Source of the DNA: Rhodospirillaceae bacterium Spongia-Bin9
GTDB taxonomy: Bacteria; Pseudomonadota; Alphaproteobacteria; Bin65
Assembly: GCA_900197615.1 (NCBI GenBank)
Contig: FZLR01000010.1
Coordinates: 1-51,439 of the forward strand
Length of the DNA: 51,439 bases
Direction: 5' to 3'
Position 1 is the first letter of the stretch. Each line of letters opens with the position of its first letter. Below the pieces are notes generated by a model. That model was given only the letters and a program-made list of their open reading frames with translations, was not told the origin of the DNA and ran no database searches. Position numbers and translations under genes: made by a program. Positions 2,497-23,305 of the stretch are shown piece by piece.

Positions 2497-3066
2497 ATGG
2501 ACATCTGGGAGGAGGGCAGACGGTCGGTGCGCGGATCGTTCCGCGTCATGGGGCTCGACGCCGACGGGCTGAAAGCCTTCAACCTCACCCTGGAGGGGTA
2601 CTGGCGCTCTTTCTACGCCGCGCTGTTCCTGCTCCCGCTCTATATCGTCTACCTGCTGAACCTTCCGTTGCCCAAAGGGGTCGGGATCGGCCGTTTCTGG
2701 CTGATCGAGGCGATTAACTATCCGCTGGTCTGGACGCTCTGGCCGCTGATCTCCTTCTATGTCTGCCGCGGCGCCGGCGTTGCGGACAAGTACACGACCT
2801 ACATCACCGTCCACAACTGGGCGCAAATTCCGTTGCTGGGCGGCCAGCTGCTCGTCGTCGTCCTGGCGTTTGCCGTCGACCCGGCGGGGCCGGGCGCCAG
2901 CCTGCTGTTCCTGGCCTGGATCGCCGTGCTGACGGCCGAAACCCTGATCGTCCGGACCGCCCTCGGCCTGCCGTGGCCCCAGACCATCATGATCGAGGGG
3001 CTGGCTTTCGCGGTCGCCTTGCTGCTCGGCGCTGCGAAGCAATACGTCATGACGGGCGGAGGCTGA
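2497..3066 (+). CDS. Membrane protein of unknown function behind the tungstate operon
   Basis: A 189-residue protein that I do not recognise. After a soluble N-terminus of about 35 residues it shows about five hydrophobic segments (starting near residues 41, 66, 115, 137 and 165), with a conserved-looking KAFNLTLEGYWRSFYAA before the first and a central polar loop CRGAGVADKYTTYITVHNWAQIP. The ATG at 2497 is chosen because it gives a compact protein starting 4 bases after the tupA stop; the frame stays open upstream but overlaps tupA. The position suggests cotranscription with tupBCA, yet nothing in the sequence links it to tungstate use. A Yip1-like or DUF-type inner membrane protein is possible. 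Confidence 0.65.
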   Translation: MDIWEEGRRSVRGSFRVMGLDADGLKAFNLTLEGYWRSFYAALFLLPLYIVYLLNLPLPKGVGIGRFWLIEAINYPLVWTLWPLISFYVCRGAGVADKYTTYITVHNWAQIPLLGGQLLVVVLAFAVDPAGPGASLLFLAWIAVLTAETLIVRTALGLPWPQTIMIEGLAFAVALLLGAAKQYVMTGGG

Positions 3067-3098
3067 ACCTGTGCGGGCGGATCGGGCCGTTCGGCGCG

Positions 3099-3863
3099 CT
3101 ACCAGCGCAAGGTCAGCCGGTCGCCGCTGATCTCGAACGAGTGGAACTGCCGGAGAAGCGATACGCCCAGCAGCGACACCCGACCCTGGCGCAGCACCAG
3201 CGCCCGCCTATTGCGGAAGGTCAGCCCGCCGACCCGGATCGTGGCCAGTACGGCCGGGGCAGCCAATGAAGCGCCGTCGGCGGTCTGCACCGGCACGGTA
3301 TATCGAAGAGCGCCCACATCGAGCCCGGCCACCCGGGCGTCGGCCGGTGAGAGGGCCACACCGGTGGCGCCGGTATCGACCAGCATCCGCGCCGGTTGGC
3401 CGTTCAGGAACACATCCATATAGAAGGCGCCGTTGCCGGAAGCTCGCACGGTCAGGCTGCGCTCGCCGTAGACCGCCGCGCCGGGCGAGAGCTCGCCCAC
3501 GACCCGCTGCCAGACCATCGTGAGTTCGTGCCGGTAGCCATAGCCGGCGACCGCAACGAGCCCGATGGCGACCCATGCCAGAAGGGATTTCAGGATCCCG
3601 CCGATCCTGTGGCGCCCCCTCACCAGCAATCCGCCGCCGAGAAAGACCAGCAAGGCGATCAGGAATCCGGCGTAGAGACCGTCTTCCGCCGAATCGAAAA
3701 CGCCGAAAGCTTCGCCGAGCAGCCAGCCCAGTCCGGCGAGACCGCCGAGCACCGCTGCGAGGATCAGGAAGGTCGGCAACAGATCGCGGAACGTATCGCC
3801 GCCTTCGGACCCGCGTTCGCGTCGGCGGTCTTTCTTGCCGTCGAAACCCCAGGGATCCGTCAC
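3099..3863 (-). CDS. Retropepsin-like aspartic protease, TIGR02281 family
   Basis: A 254-residue membrane-anchored protein. The N-terminal 30 residues are charged, followed by three hydrophobic helices (about 30-52, 63-82 and 88-106). The C-terminal half is a single clan AA protease domain: the active-site motif MLVDTGATGVALSP near residue 160, flanked by beta strands, and a closing LLGVSLLRQFHSFEISGDRLTLRW. This layout is that of TIGR02281 proteins, common in alphaproteobacteria and of unknown substrate. Retropepsins act as dimers with one Asp from each chain. The start is GTG at 3863. It lies 36 bases behind tldD on the same strand, so the two are probably cotranscribed. Confidence 0.85.
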   Translation of the reverse strand: MTDPWGFDGKKDRRRERGSEGGDTFRDLLPTFLILAAVLGGLAGLGWLLGEAFGVFDSAEDGLYAGFLIALLVFLGGGLLVRGRHRIGGILKSLLAWVAIGLVAVAGYGYRHELTMVWQRVVGELSPGAAVYGERSLTVRASGNGAFYMDVFLNGQPARMLVDTGATGVALSPADARVAGLDVGALRYTVPVQTADGASLAAPAVLATIRVGGLTFRNRRALVLRQGRVSLLGVSLLRQFHSFEISGDRLTLRW

Positions 3864-6019: not shown

Positions 6020-6376
6020 ATGGCGCGAGTCACACGGGGCGTCACCAAACACGCCCGCCACCGCAAGATTATCAAACAGGCCAAGGGCGCGCGGGGCCGG
6101 CAAAAAAACACCTTCCGCGCGGCCAATCAGCGGGTCGAGAAGAACCTGTTGTACGCCTACCGCGACCGAAAGGTGCGCAAGCGCAGCTTCCGGAGCCTGT
6201 GGATCCAGCGCATCAACGCCGGCGTCCGCGAGCACGGCATGACCTACAGCCAGTTCGTCAACGGCCTGAACAGGGCCGGCATCGAGCTGGACCGCAAGGT
6301 GCTGGCCGACATGGCCGTGCGCGACGCCGAGGCCTTCAAGGCGGTCGTCGACGCGGCGCAGAAGGCGCTGGAATAG
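6020..6376 (+). CDS. rplT: 50S ribosomal protein L20
   Basis: A 118-residue protein beginning [23 protein letters not shown], typical of bL20, with the long basic N-terminal helix and the globular C-terminal part ([23 protein letters not shown]). bL20 nucleates assembly of 23S rRNA and, in E. coli and Bacillus, represses its own operon by binding the mRNA leader. The upstream leader here is long enough for that, but no binding site was identified. Confidence 0.98.
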
Positions 6377-6386
6377 CCGATAGGAC

Positions 6387-6404
6387 GGCAGCGTCAGCGC
6401 TGCC
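6387..6404 (+). terminator. Intercistronic hairpin between rplT and pheS
   Basis: A 7-bp perfect stem (GGCAGCG / CGCTGCC) with a TCAG loop, extended by a further GAC/GTC pairing outside a one-base bulge. It sits 10 bases after the rplT stop and lacks a T-run, so it is more likely a partial terminator, attenuator or processing site than a full terminator. Confidence 0.35.
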
Positions 6405-6428
6405 CGTCCGTCGATTCTCTCCGGTCCG

Positions 6429-7517
6429 ATGAGCGAGCTCGATACCCTGCGCACCGAATTGCTGGCAGCTGTGGATGCTGCGGCCGACCTGAAGGCGCTG
6501 GACGCCATCCGGGTCGATGCGCTGGGCAAGAAGGGGCGCATCACCGACCGGATGAAGATGCTGGGCGGTATGGAACCGGAGGCCCGAAAGGCGCTCGGCC
6601 GGTCGCTCAATATCCTGAAGGACGAGGTTGCCGCCGCCGTCGAAGCCCGCAAGGCGGCGCTCGAAGATGCCGAATTGGACGCCCGCCTGGCCGGGGAACG
6701 GATCGACGTATCGCTGCCCGCGCGCTCGACGCCGATGGGCCGCATCCATCCGATCAGCCAGACGATCGAGGAGGTCAGTGCGATCTTCGGCGACATGGGT
6801 TTCTCCGTCGTCGAGGGCCCGGACATCGAAACCGACTGGCACAATTTCACCGCGCTGAATTTCCCGGAAGGCCATCCGGCTCGGGAGATGCAGGACACCT
6901 TCTATCTGCCGCCCAAGGACGACGGCACGAGAATGGTCCTGCGCACCCATACCTCGCCGGTCCAGGTGCGCACGATGCTGAGCCGCAAGCCGCCGATCCG
7001 GATTCTCGTGCCGGGCCGCACCTACCGGAGCGACTGGGACCAGACCCACACGCCGATGTTCCACCAGTTCGAGGGTCTGGTGATCGACGAAACGACCCAT
7101 ATGGGCCATCTGAAGGGCTGCCTGATCGATTTCTGCAAGGCCTATTTCGAGATCGACGACGTCAAGCTGAATTTCCGCCCGTCCTTCTTTCCCTTCACCG
7201 AACCGTCGGCGGAAGTGGACATCGCCTGCAACAAGAAGGACGGCCAGCTCCGCTTCGGCCATTTCGGCGACGGCCACGACGACTGGCTGGAAATTCTCGG
7301 CTGCGGCATGGTCCATCCGAACGTGCTGAAGAATTGCGGTCTGGACCCGGCAGTCCATCAGGGCTTCGCCTTCGGGATGGGCTGCGAGCGGGTCGCGATG
7401 CTGAAATACGGCATCCCGGACGGCCGCAGCTTCTTCGAGAACGATGTGCGCTGGATGGCGCATTACGGCTTCCTGCCGCTCGACGTGCCGACGCTCACCG
7501 GCGGCCTGTCGCAGTAG
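6429..7517 (+). CDS. pheS: Phenylalanyl-tRNA synthetase alpha subunit
   Basis: A 362-residue class II aminoacyl-tRNA synthetase subunit that activates phenylalanine and, with PheT, charges tRNA-Phe. The N-terminal coiled-coil (about residues 1-90) precedes the catalytic core: motif 2 region [16 protein letters not shown] and motif 3 [20 protein letters not shown] near the C-terminus. The chain closes normally. The expected neighbour pheT does not follow: the next gene, truA, is on the opposite strand and ends 30 bases away. The enzyme needs PheT, so the beta subunit should be encoded elsewhere. Confidence 0.97.
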
Positions 7518-11566: not shown

Positions 11567-13111
11567 TCAGCCCGCCTCCGCCTCCAGCAGGGCGCGCAGT
11601 TCGGTCTTCAGCACCTTGCCGTAGTTGTTCTTCGGCAGGGCGTCGACGAAGCGGTAGTCCTTGGGCCGCTTGAAGCGGGCGACATTGTCGAGGCACAGCC
11701 GGTCGAGCGCCTGCGGGGTCGGGCCGTCCGCCCCACCGCCTTCGCCGGCGACCACGAAGGCGACGACTTCCTCGCCCCAGTCCTCGTGCGCGCGACCGAC
11801 CACCGAGGCCTCGCGCACGCCCGGATGCTTCAGCAGCACCTCCTCGATCTCGCGCGGATAGATGTTGGTGCCGCCGGAGATGATCATGTCCTTCGAGCGA
11901 TCCTTGAGCGTGAGAAATCCGTCTTCGTCGAAGGCGCCCATGTCGCCGGTATGGAGCCAGCCGCCCTTGAGGGTCGCGGCCGTCGCCTCCGGGTTGTCCC
12001 AGTAGCCGCGCATGACGACGTCGCCACGGCACACGACCTCGCCGATTTCGCCGGCCGGCAGGGCGTTGTCGCCGGCATCGACGACGCGGACCTCGACATC
12101 GGTGCGCGCCACGCCGACGGAGCCGAGCCGCGCCCGGTAGCGCGGATGGCCGCTGTCCGCGTGCATCGCGCGGGTCACGCCGGTGATCGTCATCGGCGCT
12201 TCGCCCTGGCCGTAGATCTGGACGAATTTCGGGCCCAGCAGGTCGATGCCGCGCAGCAGGTCCTCGACATACATCGGCCCGCCGCCATAGACGATCAGCT
12301 TGAGATTGGCGGTGTCCGCTTCGGCGAGGCCGGGATGGTTGAGCAGCCGCACCACCATGGTCGGCGCAAAGAAGAAGCAGGCGCCCGGCCAGCTTTGCAG
12401 CAGGTCCAGCATCTCTGCCGGATCGAAGCCGCCGGACTCGGGGAACACCTGGGCCGCGCCGCGCGCGACATGGGGAATGCCGTAGCAGCCCGAGCCGTGG
12501 GACGCCGGCGCGCAATGGACGATGCAGTCGCCGGGCGCGATATCGCCGACATCGGCGAAATAGTTCATGGTCTGGCTGACCAGGTTGCGGTGGCTGAGGA
12601 TCGCGCCCTTGGGCCGCCCGGTGGTGCCCGAGGTGTAGAACAGCCAGGCCGGATCGTCGGGTTCGACCTCGGCCATCGGCGCCGGCTCGCCCGCCGCCAT
12701 CGCGCGCCACAGGTCGCTGTCGGTCGAGACGATCCGCTCCAGCGTCGCGATCTCGCTGTCGAGCCCGGCGATCGCGGCCTCTTTCCCGCCATCGGTGAAG
12801 CAGACCCGCGTGCCGCTGTTCTCCAGAATGAAGGCGAATTCCTTTCGGTGCAGCTTGGCGTTGACCGGCACGGCGCAGATCCCGGCATGCCAGCACGCGT
12901 ATTCGACGACCATGTAGTCCGGCACGTTGGCCATGACGATCGCCGCCCGGTCGCCCTCTCGCAGGCCGAGCCGCCCGGTCATCTGCCCGGCCATCACTGA
13001 AACCCGCCGGGCGAAGTCGCGATAGGTCGCGACTCGCGCATGGCCCTTGCCCAGCGCCGTCGCGTCCGGGTTCAGAAGGGCGGTGCGGTGAAGGAAGGCA
13101 GCGAGGTTCAT
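11567..13111 (-). CDS. AMP-dependent acyl-CoA synthetase/ligase
   Basis: A 514-residue member of the ANL adenylating family, which joins a carboxylic acid to CoA through an acyl-AMP. The P-loop FYTSGTTGRPKGAILSHRNL, the adenine-binding YGQGEAPMTITGV, the hinge region WLHTGDMGAFDEDG and DRSKDMIISGGTNIYPREIEE, and the catalytic Lys in NNYGKVLKTEL are all present. The substrate cannot be read from the sequence; the length and N-terminus (MNLAAFLHRTALLNPDATAL) resemble long- or medium-chain and aryl-CoA ligases. The ATG at 13111 gives the family N-terminus. It is convergent with the Rid gene and divergent from the M20 hydrolase. Confidence 0.88.
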   Translation of the reverse strand: MNLAAFLHRTALLNPDATALGKGHARVATYRDFARRVSVMAGQMTGRLGLREGDRAAIVMANVPDYMVVEYACWHAGICAVPVNAKLHRKEFAFILENSGTRVCFTDGGKEAAIAGLDSEIATLERIVSTDSDLWRAMAAGEPAPMAEVEPDDPAWLFYTSGTTGRPKGAILSHRNLVSQTMNYFADVGDIAPGDCIVHCAPASHGSGCYGIPHVARGAAQVFPESGGFDPAEMLDLLQSWPGACFFFAPTMVVRLLNHPGLAEADTANLKLIVYGGGPMYVEDLLRGIDLLGPKFVQIYGQGEAPMTITGVTRAMHADSGHPRYRARLGSVGVARTDVEVRVVDAGDNALPAGEIGEVVCRGDVVMRGYWDNPEATAATLKGGWLHTGDMGAFDEDGFLTLKDRSKDMIISGGTNIYPREIEEVLLKHPGVREASVVGRAHEDWGEEVVAFVVAGEGGGADGPTPQALDRLCLDNVARFKRPKDYRFVDALPKNNYGKVLKTELRALLEAEAG

Positions 13112-13268
13112 GATGCCCGTTACTATCCGCCCGCCGCGGTCCAAGGCAAGGCAGGGCTGCGCAAGATGCCGGTTGCGGCCCGGTGCAACGGAGCGCTATT
13201 GCAGCAGGGTCGATTTCCGCCCGGCCGGCGGATGGCGGCGCGCGCACCGATCGGGGAGGAGCCGGGAC

Positions 13269-14513
13269 ATGCAGAACCTGACGATAAACGGCGACCGGCT
13301 GTGGGACTCGCTGATGGAGCTGGCGCAGATCGGCGCGACCGAGAAGGGCGGCGTGTGCCGGCTCGCGCTCACCGACCTCGACCGGGAGGGCCGCGACCTG
13401 TTCATCCGCTGGTGCGAGGCCGCCGGCTGCACGGTGAGCGTCGACCGGGTCGGCAACGTCTTTGCCCGCCGGCCGGGCAGAGACGACTCGCGCCCGCCGG
13501 TGATGACCGGCAGCCATCTCGATTCCCAGCCGACCGGCGGCAAATTCGACGGCGCCTACGGTGTGCTCGCGGGGCTTGAGGTGATCCGCACGCTGAACGA
13601 CCTGGAGATCGAGACCGACGCGCCGGTCGAGGTCGTCGCCTGGACCAACGAGGAGGGCAGCCGCTTCTCGCCGCCGATGATGGGCTCCGGCGCCTTCGCC
13701 GGCGTGTTCAGCGAAGAGGAAATGCTGTCCCGGCCGGACAACGTCACCGGCGACCTGCTCGGCGACGAGCTCAAGCGCATCGGCTACGACGGCGCCGCCG
13801 CAGTCGGCGGCCGCGAGGTCGGCGCCTATTTCGAGGCCCATATCGAGCAGGGCCCGATCCTGGAAAACGAGGAGAAGACGATCGGCGTCGTCACCGGCGC
13901 CCAGGGCCAGCACTGGTACGAGATCACCGTGACCGGGCAGGAGGCCCATGCCGGCCCGACGCCGATGCCCCTGCGCAGGGACGCGCTGGTCGCGGCCTCG
14001 CGAATGATCGACGCAATCAACCGGCTCGGCCACGCCTTCCCGCCCTACGCCTGCGCCACCGTCGGCTTCGTCGACGCCAGCCCGAATTCGCGCAACACGA
14101 TTCCCGGCAGGGTCTTCTTCACCGTCGACCTGCGCCATCCCGACGACGACACGCTGGCGGCGATGAACGACCGGCTGCGCGCCGAGTTTACGGAGATTGC
14201 CGAAGCCGCGGGCTGCAGCGTCGAGATCGTCGACTTCTGGGAATTCCCGGCGACGCCGTTCGACGAGGCCTGCGTCTCCGCCGTGCGCACGGCCGCCGAG
14301 CAGGGCGGCCACAGCTGGCGCGACATCGTCTCCGGCGCCGGCCACGACGCCGTCTACATCGCCCGCGTCGCGCCGACCGGCATGATCTTCATCCCCTGCG
14401 AGGACGGCATCAGCCACAACGAGATCGAGAACGCCACCCCCGAAGACTGCGCCGCCGGCGCCGAGGTGCTGCTGAAAGCGGTGCTGGACCGGGCGGTGGG
14501 AGAATCGGGTTGA
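13269..14513 (+). CDS. M20-family Zn-dependent amidohydrolase (N-carbamoyl-amino-acid hydrolase / allantoate amidohydrolase type)
   Basis: A 414-residue hydrolase of the HyuC/AllC/beta-ureidopropionase group, which cleaves N-carbamoyl or ureido amide bonds. The binuclear metal site is intact: GSHLDSQPTGGKFDGAYG (His and bridging Asp), AWTNEEGSRF (Glu-Glu), and FEAHIEQGPILE (His). The dimerisation-domain segment QGQHWYEITVTGQEAHAGPTPM follows. A GGGGAGGAG ribosome binding site lies 8-16 bases before the ATG. Substrate within the family is undecided; L-carbamoylase and ureidopropionase are both plausible. It directly precedes the defence island. Confidence 0.9.
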   Translation: MQNLTINGDRLWDSLMELAQIGATEKGGVCRLALTDLDREGRDLFIRWCEAAGCTVSVDRVGNVFARRPGRDDSRPPVMTGSHLDSQPTGGKFDGAYGVLAGLEVIRTLNDLEIETDAPVEVVAWTNEEGSRFSPPMMGSGAFAGVFSEEEMLSRPDNVTGDLLGDELKRIGYDGAAAVGGREVGAYFEAHIEQGPILENEEKTIGVVTGAQGQHWYEITVTGQEAHAGPTPMPLRRDALVAASRMIDAINRLGHAFPPYACATVGFVDASPNSRNTIPGRVFFTVDLRHPDDDTLAAMNDRLRAEFTEIAEAAGCSVEIVDFWEFPATPFDEACVSAVRTAAEQGGHSWRDIVSGAGHDAVYIARVAPTGMIFIPCEDGISHNEIENATPEDCAAGAEVLLKAVLDRAVGESG

Positions 14514-14637
14514 TTGGTGGCGAAAACTGACTGAGCGTATTCCTTAGGATCCCCATTCTCAACCTAGCCGACTTCAAGATTATACCAAAACCGGAAAATG
14601 ATGCGGTTTGGCTTGTGGCCGTACCATCGATATGTGG

Positions 14638-15429
14638 CTATCTGATACACGCTAGAAGTTGCATCACTATTCGATAGGCTGGTTCATAGCAGGTAAGTAC
14701 TTGCGGATCGGCGTCAACCTCCCCATGAAGCAGCGCGTTTCTCATCGCATAAATCGTTTCCACCAACCCGGAAAAAAGATCATCCGGATGGCAATGAAAC
14801 TGCGCGGTACCTATAGTTAATATCGGTCCACTCCCTTGGACTAGATCGTGCATCGGACGCGGATTGCAATCGTTGTAAAACTGACGAAGCGTATTGCGCT
14901 GCGAGTACGAAAGATTCGCCAAAAACTCTGGATGTGCATACATCGCATTTGGATCGTACTGATCCTGCGTTATTCGAATTTTATCCTTACGGGTCTGCAA
15001 CGATGTTACGATAACTTCAATTGCCCCTCCCGGCATCTTCGCTGCCTTGAACTCCTGCCCGAATCGTTCCATAGTTTTATCTTGCAGTGGTCGAGGGTTT
15101 ATACAAACAGAACGAAGAGATATCCGCTCGACCACGCTCTTGCGTGTCACCTCGAAATGGATCGCGTCGAGGCTTTGGTGTAGGTCGTAAATCGCTTGCT
15201 TGAGTTTTAGCGCATCCGCAGTGCCATTGTCATTATCCAGCAAGGGTAGCACGTTCCGCCGCGCTGCATTAGGTGCATTTTTTACATACTCTAGCATCGC
15301 GCGTTCTTGCGCCTTACCGGATGCATGCCGATACCATGCGTTAAAGGCGGCCCATGCCTTCACGAAAGGACCGATGTAGTCGATCTCGGCCCTGTTCATC
15401 CAATCGATAGCATGAGGAGGAAGCGGCAT
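14638..15429 (-). CDS. HEPN-motif protein, third gene of the R-M operon
   Basis: A 263-residue protein with no family name I can assign with certainty. Residues 1-60 include the aromatic helix FVKAWAAFNAWYRH, seen in several HEPN-type proteins. Residues 230-235 read RNALLH followed by GE, the Rx4-6H motif that forms the active site of HEPN ribonucleases; it lies in a predicted helix at the C-terminal end. The central part is rich in basic and polar residues. Its ATG shares one base with the stop of the specificity gene (TGATG), so translation is coupled and it belongs functionally to the R-M unit. It may be an RNase effector or a non-catalytic helper. Confidence 0.7.
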   Translation of the reverse strand: MPLPPHAIDWMNRAEIDYIGPFVKAWAAFNAWYRHASGKAQERAMLEYVKNAPNAARRNVLPLLDNDNGTADALKLKQAIYDLHQSLDAIHFEVTRKSVVERISLRSVCINPRPLQDKTMERFGQEFKAAKMPGGAIEVIVTSLQTRKDKIRITQDQYDPNAMYAHPEFLANLSYSQRNTLRQFYNDCNPRPMHDLVQGSGPILTIGTAQFHCHPDDLFSGLVETIYAMRNALLHGEVDADPQVLTCYEPAYRIVMQLLACIR

Positions 15430-16850
15430 CAGCTTGCGTTCCCAGCCTGATCAAGGAAATTGATCGCGGCGGATTCGCCTTCTTCAACCGCGATTTCGAC
15501 GGAACGGGTAGCAATATCAAGTAGACGCCTAGATCGAGATCTTAATTCTTCGCTTCGTTGAAGTTTATTCGTTATTGTTGTTTGAATAGCAGCAGGGATA
15601 AAAGGAACAATAAACTTGTCGATATCTCCTGGATATAACTCTGGCTGAGCGGTTCCGGAGCAGTATCGTTCCGTTTGAAGCCTACCGATGAGTGAATTCA
15701 TGACAAATGCGACGTATTCTGGGTCGCCTTCACTGAGTCGTAGTATGTTTACATGATTGCTAGCAACAGCGGAATTAGAAAACTGAAAATGCGCAGTACG
15801 CCCGATCTTTGCTCCTGTGGTATAAGTGAGAATATCGCCGGACTGTAGCTGTGCCCGTTCATTAATCCTGAGCCACTTTCTGTTAGTTCTCTCAAAGTTC
15901 TCATAGTCGATTCTTGCTTCAAGTATATGACGGCTGTTGACAACGTAGACATTTCCGTCAGGCACGTATTCTGGCTGGAGACCACGCGAATTAAAAAAGC
16001 GGATGTCTCGAATAGTTTTCAACTTCGCTCCGCTTGCCAACAAGCGTTTACGCAATTCATCGAATTTTATCGAGAAAAACTGCGCATCCATCCGCCTGGC
16101 AGCAAATACCTCTTTCGCTCGAGCGGTATAGCTGAGCGGTTTCGGCGGATCCCAACCTGCGAGTCCAAGAGCCGAAAATAGAATGCCTTCCGCCTCGTGA
16201 ACTTGTCTTACGGCGACGTCAGTATATTGAAAAGCCGCTGTGACTGTCGACGCGACTGTTTCGGCAATTTGGGATGATCCCGAAAAAAACGGCAGCTCAC
16301 GAACAAGCGTTATAGTCAAGTGTGGTTGCGTCGTCTGGGAGCTTGAGCGCAACAACATTCGTCGGAAAAATGCCGTGCGAAAATAGGTGAATAGTAGGAG
16401 TCGTTTTGATCTAGATATACAAGACGTATTCAAAAAAATTAAATCACGACTGACAGCTCCTTCGCTCGTAACATAGCCAGTTCGATCAATCGCGCCGCCT
16501 TTCGTAAAGAGTATATCACCCGGCTTTACCGTTTTGAGCGTCAAGAATCGACTGCATATTTCGATAGGAATTCGCGTTGCTTTCTCTACGTCTATAATCC
16601 CTTCAACGTCGCCCACACGGTAAAAGGGCACATCCCCTGTGTCGTAGTATGCTTCGATGCTCGGATAGAATGCACTTGCATCGACGCGTATTCCCAACTC
16701 GCTCGCCGCCTGGAATGTATTCGAATTTTGGCGAACCAACTCAGCGTCAACTAAGTGCTGTTTCTGAAAATATTCTGGATCGTATCTGATCGTTTTTGCG
16801 GCGTTTAGAACAGTTGACATCGAGACAATGGAGACTTCTAGCCCCTCCAA
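15429..16850 (-). CDS. hsdS: Type I-like restriction-modification specificity subunit (HsdS)
   Basis: A protein of about 473 residues with two target recognition domains. The first runs over the segment from YDPEYFQKQHLVDAEL to DIDRTGYVTSEG, with the TRD motif VKPGDILFTKGGAIDRTGY. The second begins at MDAQFFSIKFDELRKRL and contains LQSGDILTYTTGAKIGRTAHF and SGTAQPELYPGDIDKFIVPFIP. Each TRD ends in a helical segment that spaces the domains and sets the two half-sites. The start is uncertain: TTG at 16850, just after the methylase stop at 16859, keeps EGLEVSIVSMSTVL; ATG 16820 is shorter; ATG 16925 would overlap the methylase by 67 bases. Confidence 0.88.
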   Translation of the reverse strand: MEGLEVSIVSMSTVLNAAKTIRYDPEYFQKQHLVDAELVRQNSNTFQAASELGIRVDASAFYPSIEAYYDTGDVPFYRVGDVEGIIDVEKATRIPIEICSRFLTLKTVKPGDILFTKGGAIDRTGYVTSEGAVSRDLIFLNTSCISRSKRLLLFTYFRTAFFRRMLLRSSSQTTQPHLTITLVRELPFFSGSSQIAETVASTVTAAFQYTDVAVRQVHEAEGILFSALGLAGWDPPKPLSYTARAKEVFAARRMDAQFFSIKFDELRKRLLASGAKLKTIRDIRFFNSRGLQPEYVPDGNVYVVNSRHILEARIDYENFERTNRKWLRINERAQLQSGDILTYTTGAKIGRTAHFQFSNSAVASNHVNILRLSEGDPEYVAFVMNSLIGRLQTERYCSGTAQPELYPGDIDKFIVPFIPAAIQTTITNKLQRSEELRSRSRRLLDIATRSVEIAVEEGESAAINFLDQAGNAS

Positions 16851-16858
16851 CAGTCCGC

Positions 16859-18886
16859 TCAGGCGGTCAATGTCGAAGGGGCGGGGCGAAAAAAACTTAG
16901 CCCCTCTCCGGCAGCAAACTCCCAAAAAGCTTCGGCGATCCCGTTTCGAGTCAACCCTTCGTGATTGAATAGGTCATGGGCGACGACGAAATGCCCATGC
17001 ACGTCTCGTAGTAGGCTGCCGTCGTCCCTGCATGCATAGACTTTTTCCCCTCTGTTATTTACGCTTTCTATTTGCTGTGTGGCAAAAAAGATATTGTAGT
17101 CATCCACCATAGGACAGAGCATTCCTGCCTCTGGATCGTCGTTCCACTTCTGCACGAACAAGACACTGGTCTTGGTGCCAGTGTGCGGTTTGAACGTGTT
17201 CGGATGCAACCCCACAACGGCAAGAATACGGCAACGTTCCATGATGAACTCGCGTACCCTCCGGTCGGTTGCGTTGTTGAACCGACCCTGCGGTAGCACG
17301 ATGGCCATGCGGCCGCCGGGCTTTAGGAAATCCAGATTGCGTTCAATGAACAACAAGTCGCGTCCGACAGCACGCTCCAGCTTGCCTGTCTTCTTGTGGG
17401 CCAAGTCATAGGAAGACAGCATGTCGGATTGCTTGATGTCGCCCGCGAAAGGCGGATTGGCCATGAGGATGTCGAACTTGAACTGCCGGTAGTCGGCTTG
17501 TCGGCCTCCAGCCCGTTGTCTCCGCAGCCGCCGCCATCCGTCGCCATAGGTATCGGACCAGTCGTCCTGCCTCACGGTTTCGTCCCACTTGGTCCAATCG
17601 AGCGTGTTGAGGTGCAGAACATTGCTCTCGCCATCGCCTGCGATCAGATTGAGGCAGCGAGAGACTCTAACGCTCTTTTCATCGAAGTCGATGGCAAACA
17701 TCTTTTCGCACACATAATCCTCGCAACGCGGAGGCTTGGATTCCATAGTAAGCAGGTAGCTTTCCTCTAGTCCCATATTTGCAATGATTTTTCGCCAGAC
17801 ATGAAACATCGTATGCACGGTGAATCCGGACGATCCACAAGCGGGGTCAATCACAGTTTCATGCTCTTTCGGATCGAGCATCTTAACGCACATATCGATG
17901 ACCCAACGGGGTGTGAAATATTGACCTTTTTCGCCCTTAGACGACTTGTTTACCAAATACTCGAATGCATCGTCGATCACATCGAGATTGGAATTGAACA
18001 GCTTCCATTCTTCAAGTGATGCGACACAAACTTGAAGATGGTCTGGTGAAAGCCGAATTCGTTCATCGTTGAGGAATACGCCGGGCCATTGTTTTTTTGC
18101 GTCGTCGAACAGATTCTGAATCGCTACCTTAAGCTGCGCGGCAGTGTTGCTATTGCGGAAACGAAGTTGAGGATATCGCTCCCGATGATGGGACATCTCG
18201 TCATAGAGCTTGGTAAAGACCAGCTTGAACACTTCCTCGAACACGTCGACGCCCGCGTTCGCAAGAACCTCGTTCTCCATATCGACGATTAGATCGCGAA
18301 GCGACCGAGCCTTAGCCCCTTCGCGCTCGCGTTCCAATTCCTTGTCGATGAGGGTTTGAATGGTCCACGGCTGATTGACGATATCCTCAATCGTCTGGTC
18401 GGCGCGGGGCAAGTGGTGGATGGAAACGAAGTAATTTGGATTCTTACGGTGCCACACTTCGGTCAGAATACCGTTACTCCACATAGCAAGCGGCGCGCCG
18501 GTTGCATGAGCATAAGAGCGTAACTGCTCTTTCCCATCGCGCAGTTTCGGTTGTTTCACCTCGACAATAATGTAAGGGACAGTAGGACGGTCAGCATCGA
18601 ACACTACAATATCCGCACGCTTGGAACTATCCCGCCCGAAAGTGATTGGATATTCGACCGCCAGACGCGATGCCGGATAGCCGTATCGGTCGATCAAGCG
18701 GGATAGCCACAGTTGCCGGGTCCGCTCTTCGGGCGCTAATCGCACTTCCTTGTTGCGAACGAGGCAGGTCACATAGGTAGCGATTTTGCGTCGCACCTCC
18801 TTTTCGAACGTCCGCTCGTCTAGCGCTTGAATCTCCTCGTCTGAGAAAAGGACAAATTCATCAGAACTAACGGCGACCTTGGTCAT
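16859..18886 (-). CDS. PD-(D/E)XK nuclease fused to N6-adenine DNA methyltransferase
   Basis: A 675-residue bifunctional protein. Residues 25-140 form an HsdR-type N-terminal nuclease domain: catalytic D92 in RADIVVFD, E109 and K111 in IIVEVKQP, and the QxxxY motif at Q121-Y125, typical of type I restriction nucleases. Residues 290-600 form a type I-like N6 methyltransferase (HsdM fold): GQYFTPRWV at 321-329, SAM-binding DPACGSSGF at 347-355 and catalytic NPPF at 477-480. No helicase or translocase domain is present. With the S subunit next door this resembles BcgI-like enzymes, where one chain methylates and cuts. GGGAG upstream supports the ATG at 18886. Confidence 0.9.
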
Positions 18887-19195
18887 GTATGCTCCCGTTT
18901 CGGATATCGCCTAGTGCCAGCAGCGACTCATCTGCAACAACATTTTGTGCTGGTTACCTGTACCTTACTTTACGTGCAAGCACGATTCACGCCCCGGCCC
19001 CCGGCACAACATCCACCACCGCCGCATCCCCAACACCGTCCCCCCGCCACGCCACCGTCCGGTCGGGGCCGTCGGCGGCAGGCCGGCGGGGCGCACGATC
19101 GCCGGTGTCATGATACGGTGGGCGGGCAACTCCAATCGCGCGGCGCGGACTGCCTTGCGCGCGGTTCCCTCCAGGCGCAGGCCCAGGAGCACAGG
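18887..19195. other. Island-edge gap between the R-M operon and the LLM oxidoreductase
   Basis: 309 bases without an intact gene. 18887-18986 is AT-rich and should hold the R-M operon promoter on the minus strand; no convincing -35/-10 pair was found. A small inverted repeat, CGTGC-AA-GCACG, lies at 18973-18984. From 18987 the sequence is GC-rich and contains a monooxygenase remnant (listed separately). The last part holds AGGAG at about 19185 for the following gene. Confidence 0.5.
18987..19067 (-). pseudogene. 3' remnant of a second FAD-dependent monooxygenase
   Basis: Read on the minus strand, 26 codons ending in TGA at 18987-18989 give [20 protein letters not shown], then VPGAGA. This aligns with the C-terminus of the intact monooxygenase at 20226-21914 (PDQTVAWRGSDFGDAAGLVD, then VVRGAGGG). 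Upstream of the Pro codon the similarity stops. The remnant abuts the AT-rich island, so a duplicated or ancestral monooxygenase gene was apparently reduced to its tail. Being in the same orientation about 1.2 kb from the intact copy, it could mark a duplication followed by deletion. Confidence 0.65.
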
Positions 19196-20218
19196 ATGAC
19201 GACGTTGTCGATACTCGACCTCGTGCGCGTCACCGAAGGCACGGATGCCCGCGGTGCGCTCGACAATGCCCGCGATCTCGCCGCCCACGCCGAGGGGTGG
19301 GGCTATCGGCGGCTCTGGGTCGCCGAGCATCACAATATGCCGGGCATCGCCAGTGCCGCGACATCCGTCGTCATCGGCCATATCGCGTCCGGGTCGAAGA
19401 CCATCCGGGTCGGGGCCGGCGGCATCATGCTGCCGAACCATTCGCCGCTGGTGATCGCCGAGCAGTTCGGCACGCTGGCGCGCCTGTATCCCGGCCGTAT
19501 CGACCTCGGGCTCGGGCGGGCGCCGGGCACGGACCGGCACACGCTTCAGGCGCTGCGCCGCGCGCCGCAGGCGGCCGAGAACTTTCCCCACGATGTCCTG
19601 GAATTGCAGCATTATCTTGCGCCGCTCCAGCCGGACCAGCGCATTCAGGCGGTTCCTGCCGCCGGCACCGAGGTACCGCTGTGGATACTCGGCTCAAGCG
19701 ATTTCGGCGCGATGCTCGCGGCCGAACTCGGCCTGCCCTATGCGTTCGCATCGCATTTCGCGCCGGAGTTTCTGCTGCCCGCCCTCCGGATATATCGCAG
19801 CCGCTTCAAGCCGTCGGCGCAGCTCGCCGAACCCTATGCAACGGTCGGCGTGAACGTCATCGCCGCAGACAGCGATGCCGAGGCGCGCCGGCTCGCGACG
19901 ACCCAGCAGATGTCCTTCACTAACATGGTTCGCGGCGCCCGCGGGCTGAGCCGTCCGCCGATCGACGATATCGAGGGCTATTGGTCGCCGGCGGAGAAAG
20001 CGCACGCGATGAGGATGCTTGCCCGCTCTATCGTCGGTTCCCGGGACACGGTGCGCGCGGGTCTCGATGCCCTCCTCGCCGAGACCGGCGCGAATGAACT
20101 GACGATCGTGTCGGATGTCTACGATCACGCGGCGCGGCTGCGCTCTTTCGAGCTGATTGCCGCGGCCGGAAGAGACGTTTCCGCCCACCGGGCGGGCCGA
20201 CCGGGCATTGCAGTCTGA
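19196..20218 (+). CDS. LLM-class flavin-dependent oxidoreductase (bacterial luciferase-like)
   Basis: A 340-residue TIM-barrel oxidoreductase of the luciferase-like monooxygenase group, using reduced flavin. Family marks are [22 protein letters not shown] at the start, [23 protein letters not shown], the [44 protein letters not shown] block and [27 protein letters not shown]. These fit the MsnO8/YhbW-like subgroup. The ATG at 19196 with AGGAG upstream is chosen; the open frame continues upstream across the island edge but is not conserved. No flavin reductase is adjacent. The substrate is unknown. Confidence 0.9.
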
Positions 20219-20225
20219 CGGGATA

Positions 20226-21914
20226 TCACCCGCCGCCGGCGCCCCTTACAACATCGACCAGCCCCGCAGCATCCCCGAAATCGCTGCCCCGCCACGCCAC
20301 CGTCTGGTCGGGGCGGATAAGGGCGTAATCGGCCTCGTAGAGATCGCGCAGGGCCGGATCGCCGGGGGCAACGTGGGTCAGCGGCAGGCCGGCGCTGCGG
20401 GCCGCCTCCAGCATCGGCGCGGCGCGGTCCGGATCGCGACCGAGGTCGAGCAGGGTGAATTCGAAGCCGAAGCGGTCGTAGAGCGACGAACCGTCGGCGA
20501 GCCAGGCGTGGGGCGGGCGGCCGCCGGGGCAGGCGGTCGGGACGTATTCGTTCGGCCGGTCCGGCGGCGGCGCCGTGCCGTCGGGCAAAATCGCCGGCGA
20601 GCCGTCGATGCGCGTGCCGAAGGTGATGCCGGGGATGTTGAACTCGCGCCGTCCGTGGTCCTCGAAATAGGCGCCGGCCTCGGCGCGTAAGGCTTCGCCT
20701 TCCGGCGACGCCTCTTCCAGCTTCGGGTCGGGGATGAAGTTACCCAGGGAATCGGCAAAAGCGCGGGCATAGCCGGTGTTGCGCACCGCCGCCGGCTTGC
20801 GCTCAAGCTCGTAGGAATCGAGCAGGCCGGGGCCGCCCCAGCCCTTCACGACCGCCGCCAGCTTCCAGCCCAGGTTGACCGCGTCCTCGACCGCCGTGTT
20901 ATAGCCGAGGCCGCCCATCGGCGTGAACAGGTGGGCGGCGTCGCCGGCGAGGAACAGCCGGCCCCCGGAATTTCCGGGCCGGAAACGCTCGGCAACCAGG
21001 GCAAAGCCGGCGGTCCAGGAGGCGCGGAACAGGATCTCGAAATCGATTTCCCGGCCCATGCAGTCGGCGAACATGCGCCGGACGTCGCTGTCGGTGAGCG
21101 CCGCTTCGTCCTCGCCCGCCAGGAGCTGGGTGTGGAAGACGAACTCCGAGGCGCCGTCGAGCGCGATCGTGAAGCTGCGCCGGGCGTGGTGGACGTTGAC
21201 ATGCATCCAGCCCGGCGGGCCGCTCATGGCCGATCTGACGGCCGCGCTGCGCAGGTGGACGGCGTGCATGCGGCCGCCGGCAAAGTTGCGCTGCACGCCG
21301 GCTTCGCCCTCGTAGCGCACGCCCAGATGCTTGCGCACCAGGCTGCCGGGGCCGTCGCAGCCGACCAGAAAGCGGGCCGAGGCTTCGAAGGTCTTGCCGC
21401 CGTGTTCGACCGTGGCCGTCGCCCGCGCGCCGTCGTCCCGCACCGCGACGACCTCGTGCTCATAGTGCAGCGTTACCGACGGCAGGGCGGCGGCGTGACG
21501 CTGCAACACCCGCTCGACATACATCTGCGAGACCCGGTGGGGCAGTTCGGCGGCGCTCCACGAGCCGGTGAGCCGCTTCGGCAGTTCGGCGGCCTGGCGC
21601 GCCGTCGGCAGGCGGAAGCGCGCCAGTTCGTAGCCGGCATAGGTCGTGTAGTAGACGATGTCGGTCGGGTGGTCCGGCGGCAGGCCGAGTCGCCGGATTT
21701 CGCCGGCGAAACCGAGCCGCCGGAAATGCTCCATCGTGCGCGCCTGGGTGGCGTTGGCCTGGGGGCTGAAGGAATCCGCCCGGTCGTCGTCGAACAGCGC
21801 CACGGCGACGCCGCGCCGCCCGAGCTCGATGGCGAGCATCAACCCCGCCGGCCCGCCGCCGGCGATAATGACGTCCGTATCGGGCAACTGCGGGGTGAGG
21901 CGGGATTCGTGCAA
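20226..21914 (-). CDS. FAD-dependent aromatic monooxygenase (PheA/TfdB type)
   Basis: A 562-residue flavoprotein. The N-terminal Rossmann motif is DVIIAGGGPAGLMLAIELGRRG, with FDDDRADS as the adenine-ribose segment; the second FAD motif is LFLAGDAAHLFTPMGGLGYNTAVEDAVNLGWKLA, and FLVGCDGPGSLVRK is the conserved DG motif. The C-terminal 150 residues form the thioredoxin-like domain of phenol hydroxylase-type enzymes. These proteins hydroxylate phenols and polyketide-like aromatics with NAD(P)H. Translation seems to start at TTG 21914, since no ATG or GTG is available in frame upstream of the Rossmann motif. A remnant of a second copy lies at 18987-19067. Confidence 0.9.
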   Translation of the reverse strand: MHESRLTPQLPDTDVIIAGGGPAGLMLAIELGRRGVAVALFDDDRADSFSPQANATQARTMEHFRRLGFAGEIRRLGLPPDHPTDIVYYTTYAGYELARFRLPTARQAAELPKRLTGSWSAAELPHRVSQMYVERVLQRHAAALPSVTLHYEHEVVAVRDDGARATATVEHGGKTFEASARFLVGCDGPGSLVRKHLGVRYEGEAGVQRNFAGGRMHAVHLRSAAVRSAMSGPPGWMHVNVHHARRSFTIALDGASEFVFHTQLLAGEDEAALTDSDVRRMFADCMGREIDFEILFRASWTAGFALVAERFRPGNSGGRLFLAGDAAHLFTPMGGLGYNTAVEDAVNLGWKLAAVVKGWGGPGLLDSYELERKPAAVRNTGYARAFADSLGNFIPDPKLEEASPEGEALRAEAGAYFEDHGRREFNIPGITFGTRIDGSPAILPDGTAPPPDRPNEYVPTACPGGRPPHAWLADGSSLYDRFGFEFTLLDLGRDPDRAAPMLEAARSAGLPLTHVAPGDPALRDLYEADYALIRPDQTVAWRGSDFGDAAGLVDVVRGAGGG

Positions 21915-22018
21915 GGAACGGGTTCTCTTCAGGGTGGAATTCGCAGATATTGTTTTGTGGTTTTAACGGCCGGACCAGAGGCGCGCCTGTTCCGGTGTGG
22001 GCGCCGGAAGGAATCAGC

Positions 22019-23305
22019 ATGATTTGCCGGACTACGACAACATCCCTTCTCGTCGTCGGGGCCCTGTCGTTCGCTCTCGCCGCCCTGGCACCGCCGCCGG
22101 CCGCCGGCGCGGAAGCCTGCGCCGGTTTTATCCACCCGTTAGGCCGCGCCGAATCCTTCTGGCGGAAGGCCGGGGCAGAGCGCGTGCAGTCCTGCATCGC
22201 ACAGCTCGGTGCAGCGGCGCGCAGCAAGAGCCAGCAACTGACCCCGTTGCATCTGGCCGCCCTGTTCAGCGGCAACCCGGCGGGCGTTTCGGCGCTTCTG
22301 CAAGCCGGCGCCGATTCCAACGCCGGGGCCAAGGGCGGTTTCGCGCCGCTCCATCTCGCGGCTCAGTCCGGCCGCAGCCCGGCGGTCGTCGCAACCCTGC
22401 TGGAAGCCGGCGCCGATCCCAACGGCAAGACCGAGAAGGGATTTTCGCCGCTGCATCTCGCTGCGGAGTACAACCGCCAATCCGGGATCGTCGCGGTATT
22501 GCTGAAGGGCGGCGCCGATCCCAACGACGGGATAAGAGGCGGGTTCACGCCGTTGCATATCGCCGCTCAGCATAACCGCAACCCGGCGGTTATCGCGGAA
22601 CTCGTAAACGGCGGCGCAAGACCCGACGCCAGGACCGGGAAGGGTGTGACCCCCTTGCATCTGGCAGCGATTTTCAGCCGCGCTCCGGCGGTCGTCGCGG
22701 CGCTGGTGAAGGGCGGCGCCGAGCCGAACGCGAAGATCAAGGCCGGCGCGACACCGCTGCATCTGGCGGCCCGCCGAAACAGCAACCCGGCAATTGTCAT
22801 GGCCCTGCTGAACGGCGGCGCGGATCCGAAGATTACGGTCAAAGGAAAGACAGCGTTCGACTTCGGGAGGAACAACAAGAAGCTGGCCGGCAGCGCCGCC
22901 TATCGCCGGCTAAAAGATGCGCACGACAAGTCGGCAGCGGCGCGGCAGTCGGCCCGGAAAAAGGCGGACACGAAATCGCGAACTCCGGGTACGTCCAAGG
23001 CCGCCCGAGAGCCGGTATCGTGGCGCGGCGCCTGCATCGTCGGCAAGGACCTGAAGCCGGGCGAGGGCTGCAGGATACCGGGCGGCGGCGAATTCAAGGT
23101 CGCGTCCGACGGATGCGTCCGCAGTATACCCGATATCCCGCGCGGCTCGCCGAAGGAAAAGGTCAAAATGTCGATGGGCGGATTTAGCGTATCCGTCCGG
23201 AACGGAAAGTCCTCGACATGCATCCGCGGCCATTTGCGATTGGGCAAGTTCGCGGCCAGAAGGCAGGCGGAAACATCTTCCTGGAAAATCGAGGCGTTGC
23301 CCTGA
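22019..23305 (+). CDS. Secreted ankyrin-repeat protein
   Basis: A 428-residue protein with a Sec signal peptide (residues 1-31, hydrophobic core LLVVGALSFALAALAPPPAAG). A linker with two Cys follows, then six ankyrin repeats at residues 75-277 and a partial seventh. A basic low-complexity linker (DKSAAARQSARKKADTKS) joins a C-terminal domain of about 95 residues with Cys pairs (GACIVGKDLKPGEGCRIPGG), which I do not recognise. Ankyrin repeats bind proteins; a periplasmic or exported binding role is likely. GGAAGGA upstream supports the ATG at 22019. It is divergent from the monooxygenase and not part of an obvious operon. Confidence 0.85.
   Translation: MICRTTTTSLLVVGALSFALAALAPPPAAGAEACAGFIHPLGRAESFWRKAGAERVQSCIAQLGAAARSKSQQLTPLHLAALFSGNPAGVSALLQAGADSNAGAKGGFAPLHLAAQSGRSPAVVATLLEAGADPNGKTEKGFSPLHLAAEYNRQSGIVAVLLKGGADPNDGIRGGFTPLHIAAQHNRNPAVIAELVNGGARPDARTGKGVTPLHLAAIFSRAPAVVAALVKGGAEPNAKIKAGATPLHLAARRNSNPAIVMALLNGGADPKITVKGKTAFDFGRNNKKLAGSAAYRRLKDAHDKSAAARQSARKKADTKSRTPGTSKAAREPVSWRGACIVGKDLKPGEGCRIPGGGEFKVASDGCVRSIPDIPRGSPKEKVKMSMGGFSVSVRNGKSSTCIRGHLRLGKFAARRQAETSSWKIEALP
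22241..22849 (+). repeat. Six tandem ankyrin repeat units, about 102 bp each
   Basis: Units of 34 residues (the last has 33) each follow TPLHLAAxxxxNPAxVxALLxxGADPN with a short linker of seven to eight residues. The spacing is unusually regular and the units are closely similar, suggesting recent internal duplication or homogenisation. Unit starts in the protein are about residues 75, 109, 143, 177, 211 and 245. Confidence 0.85.

Follow-up and report, generated by a model that had tools for sequence, protein, structure and literature searches.

An orphan monooxygenase tail at the edge of a DNA-modification island probably predates the island

The last 26 codons of a FAD monooxygenase gene, complete with a TGA stop codon, stand alone at the edge of a low-GC DNA-modification island in the window, the whole 51,439-nucleotide stretch of Rhodospirillaceae bacterium Spongia-Bin9 DNA analysed here. 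To judge from its sequence, this orphan tail is a dead leftover of a duplicated monooxygenase end, ordinary pseudogene debris, and the closest relative, a congener that has no island, carries the same tail at the same place. I propose, with a probability of about 0.6, that the tail was duplicated when a neighbouring gene, encoding a luciferase-like (LLM) oxidoreductase, arrived at the locus, that it then decayed, and that the island later replaced adjacent genes in the window lineage only. In the common ancestor of the window's own genome (G000) and its congener G005, the LLM gene would have settled at the monooxygenase 3' end, leaving a second copy of that end, as a direct repeat, on its other side. 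This duplicate, made up of the last 40-odd codons without the catalytic part, would have been decaying ever since. Later, and in the window lineage alone, a 4.5-kb island with methylase and specificity genes would have taken the place of a dehydrogenase and an aminotransferase gene, and it now abuts the stop codon of the tail. Duplication by the arrival of the LLM gene is what I infer: the event left no recognisable junction, and an origin of the tail as the end of a tandem copy would fit just as well. The tail has no shown role in the entry of the island.

Table 1. Features of the locus in window positions. G000 is the window's own genome; G001–G006 are its six congeners.
Feature	Position	Strand	Remarks
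Hydantoinase/carbamoylase-family amidase (Peptidase_M20)	13245..14513	+	Left neighbour, common to G005
Low-GC DNA-modification island, between amidase 3' end and orphan tail	14514..18986	.	G005 homology ends at ~14500 and at about the tail stop codon
263-aa island protein without confident family	14638..15429	-	Island gene
Type I specificity-subunit-like protein	15429..16925	-	Island gene
N6-adenine methylase with N-terminal HSDR_N_2 domain	16859..18886	-	Island gene
Orphan C-terminal tail of FAD monooxygenase	18987..19067	-	26 codons + TGA; apparent non-functional remnant; orthologous orphan tail of G005 at L022 ~6303-6447
Site of 60-bp in-frame deletion relative to the G005 tail copy	19066..19072	.	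From alignment
5' flank of LLM gene, common to G005	19076..19195	.	Local alignment: 101 identical, 15 mismatches, 0 gaps
MsnO8-family luciferase-like (LLM) oxidoreductase	19196..20218	+	95% aa identity with the G005 counterpart; congeners G001-G004, G006 without orthologue
Intact FAD monooxygenase, source of the tail	20226..21914	-	FAD_binding_3 + Rng_hyd_C; NCBIfam PRK06126 subfamily

The similarity between the tail and the intact gene was assessed by local nucleotide alignment, with 97 segments of 481 nt taken from 22000–51000, on both strands, providing 194 control comparisons. The tail aligned with the 3' end of the intact gene with a score of 81, against a maximum of 37 and a mean of 23.3 for the controls. 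A chance match is thereby ruled out, and the correspondence that a sequence-only reading had proposed between these 26 codons and the end of the intact monooxygenase is borne out at the nucleotide level, above every control from the window. The minus strand of 18987–19067 translates into 26 residues followed by a stop (the minus-strand translation of 18987–19100 ends in a 27-letter stretch, with the stop at 18987–18989), and in a tblastn comparison (E 5e-8) the intact neighbour has the same residue at 19 of the 26 aligned positions. Compared with the 562 codons of the intact gene, the tail retains nothing of the FAD-binding domain (residues 12–378). It therefore combines similarity beyond chance with the absence of the domains needed for activity, as a remnant does. 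A scan of 18850–19250 for promoters and terminators found none. Beside the stop codon of the tail, GC content drops from 0.77–0.78 to 0.49–0.53, in agreement with the earlier statement that the AT-rich island begins there. That same reading had the similarity ending abruptly on both sides; this holds at the stop codon, with its drop in GC, whereas the upstream end of the window copy is a 60-bp deletion that is missing from the copy in G005.

The tail belongs to a known kind of feature and is ordinary genome wear. Gene remnants and pseudogene fragments are found in bacterial genomes, for example as products of gene deterioration in Rickettsia (PMC2374718). Those remnants are, like the tail, short decaying orphan pieces of genes that are intact in relatives; the present case differs in that the source gene is intact next door, which points to a duplicate end rather than to the loss of a sole copy.

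The age of the tail relative to the island can be read from G005, in which the gene order is monooxygenase, LLM, orphan tail, D-2-hydroxyacid dehydrogenase, class IV aminotransferase and amidase, without an island. Both flanks of the island have counterparts in G005, namely the amidase and a ligase on the left and the LLM and monooxygenase genes on the right. The orphan tail of G005 is an independent match to residues 514–559 of the query (genome-wide E 1.5e-11). It lies at the equivalent place, upstream of the same LLM gene, and is longer than that of the window (~43–46 codons); relative to it, the window tail has lost 60 bp in frame, the remainder being alignable through to the LLM start. 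Similarity of the G005 tail to the intact gene starts abruptly at gene nucleotide ~1549. A longer upstream extension of the remnant, hinted at by gapped alignments, was rejected, since the stretch upstream of the G005 tail gave a score of 25 that was equalled or exceeded in 88 of 300 shuffles. The best matches of the G005 tail are to the genes of G000 and G005 (27/40 aa) and of G001 and G003 (26/41), the next match outside the genus being 21/42 aa, in G010. Both tails also have in common with four congeneric genes a one-residue gap that is absent in G002, G004, G007, G009, G010 and G019. The sister status of G000 and G005 rests on the LLM and amidase genes, not on a tree; their amidases are 95% identical, as against 88–90% for the other congeners. 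Another candidate orphan tail, at G007:C128, was left out of the count, as it sits at the edge of its contig (from position 19 on).

Of 85 sites, 63 are the same in both tails, whereas the intact genes of G000 and G005 coincide at 116 of 132; this divergence, together with the 60-bp deletion, suggests that the tail is decaying. Differences between the tails fall on the three codon positions as 3, 6 and 4 (66 sites), versus 4, 1 and 9 (112 sites) for the intact pair, the sites being few. Between the G005 tail and the intact gene the differences are 5, 7 and 12, a lean towards third positions, again over few sites, that is weakly compatible with a formerly functional paralogue.

Since the island-free G005 has the same orphan tail, the tail was a tail before the island, or independently of it. 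The sequence-only reading had offered two accounts of the junction. Entry of the island next to the remnant of a duplicated monooxygenase end agrees with the position of the tail in G005. The other account, in which the greater part of a duplicated monooxygenase gene gave way to the island itself, draws on the contact between the island and the stop codon of the tail and on the absence of the remainder of the copy. If the remnant had been made in this way, however, one would expect island-free relatives to have it in full or not at all, whereas G005 has the same truncated tail with neither an island nor a full second copy, which tells against truncation by the island unless G005 lost the island secondarily. 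Moreover, the missing body of the copy would be expected on the LLM side of the tail and not on the island side. I consider such a replacement very improbable. A tail that is older than the island is no evidence of what the island destroyed, which matters for reading the locus correctly; the genes pointed to as lost on entry of the methylase island are instead the dehydrogenase/aminotransferase pair.

This pair, and not a monooxygenase copy, is most likely what the island replaced, as far as comparison of sequences can tell. Such a replacement would be the simplest reading because both are genes of the genus, missing in G000, that stand at this place in G005. Dehydrogenase orthologues (92% identity) were found in G001 and G003, and aminotransferase orthologues (88–89%) in G001, G003 and G004, while the best matches in G000 are 42% and 32% identical, respectively (11 genomes searched in both cases); absence from G000 is judged in an incomplete assembly (316 contigs, 95.9% complete). 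Alternatively, G005 may have gained the pair at this locus, which is conceivable because in G001 and G003 the dehydrogenase and aminotransferase genes are located elsewhere. As to the island itself, a methylase comparable to its own at E 1e-60 or better was found only in G020 among 60 relatives (55% identical). No separate restriction subunit was seen in 14638–18886, and a search for exact direct and inverted repeats of 9–15 bases between the two island edges found none. Matches of the segment 14638–18886 to MAD2 and MAD5, models of the MADS defence system, stay below the respective cut-offs.

When the window's own genome and those of 60 relatives (61 in all) were searched, orthologues of the intact monooxygenase (89–90% identity) turned up in three of the six congeners, G001, G003 and G005. 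G000 contains no second close copy, its sole other match being 30% identical. In G001, G003 and G005, this locus yielded no second full-length copy, which the sequence-only reading had suggested looking for in relatives. Downstream of the monooxygenase gene in G001 and G003 lies a gene for what I take to be an EamA-type transporter, the G005 orthologue of which is on another contig. On its other side, an ankyrin-repeat-like gene divergently adjoins the monooxygenase gene in the window and in G003 and is not there in G005 and G001 (compared at window 21950–23305, L022 ~2766–3470, L023 1739–3256 and L024 ~12060–12900); this side is therefore also in flux.

The LLM gene has, besides its close counterpart in G005, an orthologue in G007, which belongs to another genus (62% identity; 13 genomes, a set without G009 and G010). 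Because five of the six congeners have no LLM orthologue, and because G001 and G003 have the transporter gene in this position, the LLM gene is, on these comparisons, a recent arrival at the monooxygenase 3' end in the G000/G005 lineage. Its closest relatives in named genomes are 83% (Ancylobacter) and 81% (Bradyrhizobium) identical, the others being lower. The idea that it is a habitual partner of the monooxygenase was discarded, as none of 84 LLM loci outside G000 and G005 (80 named ones and L029–L032, several of them short, the shortest ~3 kb) contained a monooxygenase match at E 1e-3 or better. In both G000 and G005, two copies of the monooxygenase tail flank the LLM gene as direct repeats in the same orientation.

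How these repeats came about is where the main rival to duplication on LLM arrival comes in. It supposes that a complete second monooxygenase gene once stood head-to-head with the LLM gene and was deleted down to its tail before the split of G000 and G005 and before the island. Just such a pattern at a second locus of the genus (see below) speaks for this history, as does the slight excess of third-position differences between the tail and the intact gene. Yet neither the window's genome nor the three congeners with the gene has a full second copy here, and homology begins abruptly at nucleotide ~1549 with nothing recognisable upstream, so that decay of a tandem copy, although it deserves to be kept in mind, is rather unlikely. 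Elements are also known to integrate into gene 3' ends with duplication of the end, as at phage att sites. The present locus resembles this situation in that direct repeats of a gene 3' end flank newly arrived DNA; it differs in that no integrase or element gene lies between the two tails, where only the LLM gene was identified, and in that the island is outside the repeats.

An improbable third possibility is that a piece of foreign DNA, bringing the LLM gene along with a different 3' end for the monooxygenase, recombined into the monooxygenase gene, gave it a new tail and shunted the old one downstream. The direct-repeat layout around a newcomer gene would be accounted for, and sites that split G000/G005 from G001/G003 are denser over the final 141 columns of the intact gene, which is about the duplicated length, than elsewhere (0.128 versus 0.026 per column; Fisher p 4e-7, uncorrected, for one of five cuts). 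These split sites are unpolarised because no outgroup is near enough. The choice of cut points, however, followed inspection of the profile, and rapid evolution of the C-terminal region may be explanation enough; the excess in the last ~140 nt suggests either local recombination or fast evolution. Furthermore, at the split sites the G000 remnant follows the present G000/G005 tail 7 to 2 (4 other) and the G005 remnant does so 8 to 4 (6 other). That the remnants side with today's tail argues against their being an old, displaced one.

The parallel for this possibility is rhs C-terminal displacement (PMC2935791), in which a dissociated C-terminal piece likewise follows an intact gene, from which it is separated by an additional gene. 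Compared with that system, the present orphan is without core sequence, is single, and is a homologous tail instead of an alternative one; the split-site comparison, too, argues against displacement. It is accordingly improbable that the C-terminal end of a metabolic gene was exchanged in an rhs-type displacement that also delivered the LLM gene, with the duplicated tail as its record. If this were true, the repeated orphan FAD monooxygenase tails, at the LLM and glutathione-transferase loci, would mark a recombination-prone 3' end and not chance decay.

At the second of these loci, G004 (L120, G004:C35) has a full FAD monooxygenase gene directly upstream of a gene that I take to be glutathione-transferase-like. 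The match at this locus is limited to the C-terminal residues 499–559 in G002 (L117 ~2296–2478; G002:C16:14283–14447) and 518–557 in G005 (L119 ~2315–2434; G005:C69), and to 34 bp in G000 (L118 1448–1481; G000:C141). Since the gene is full in G004 and reduced to tails in G002 and G005, the genus offers another instance of a monooxygenase gene lost except for its final codons next to a retained neighbour.
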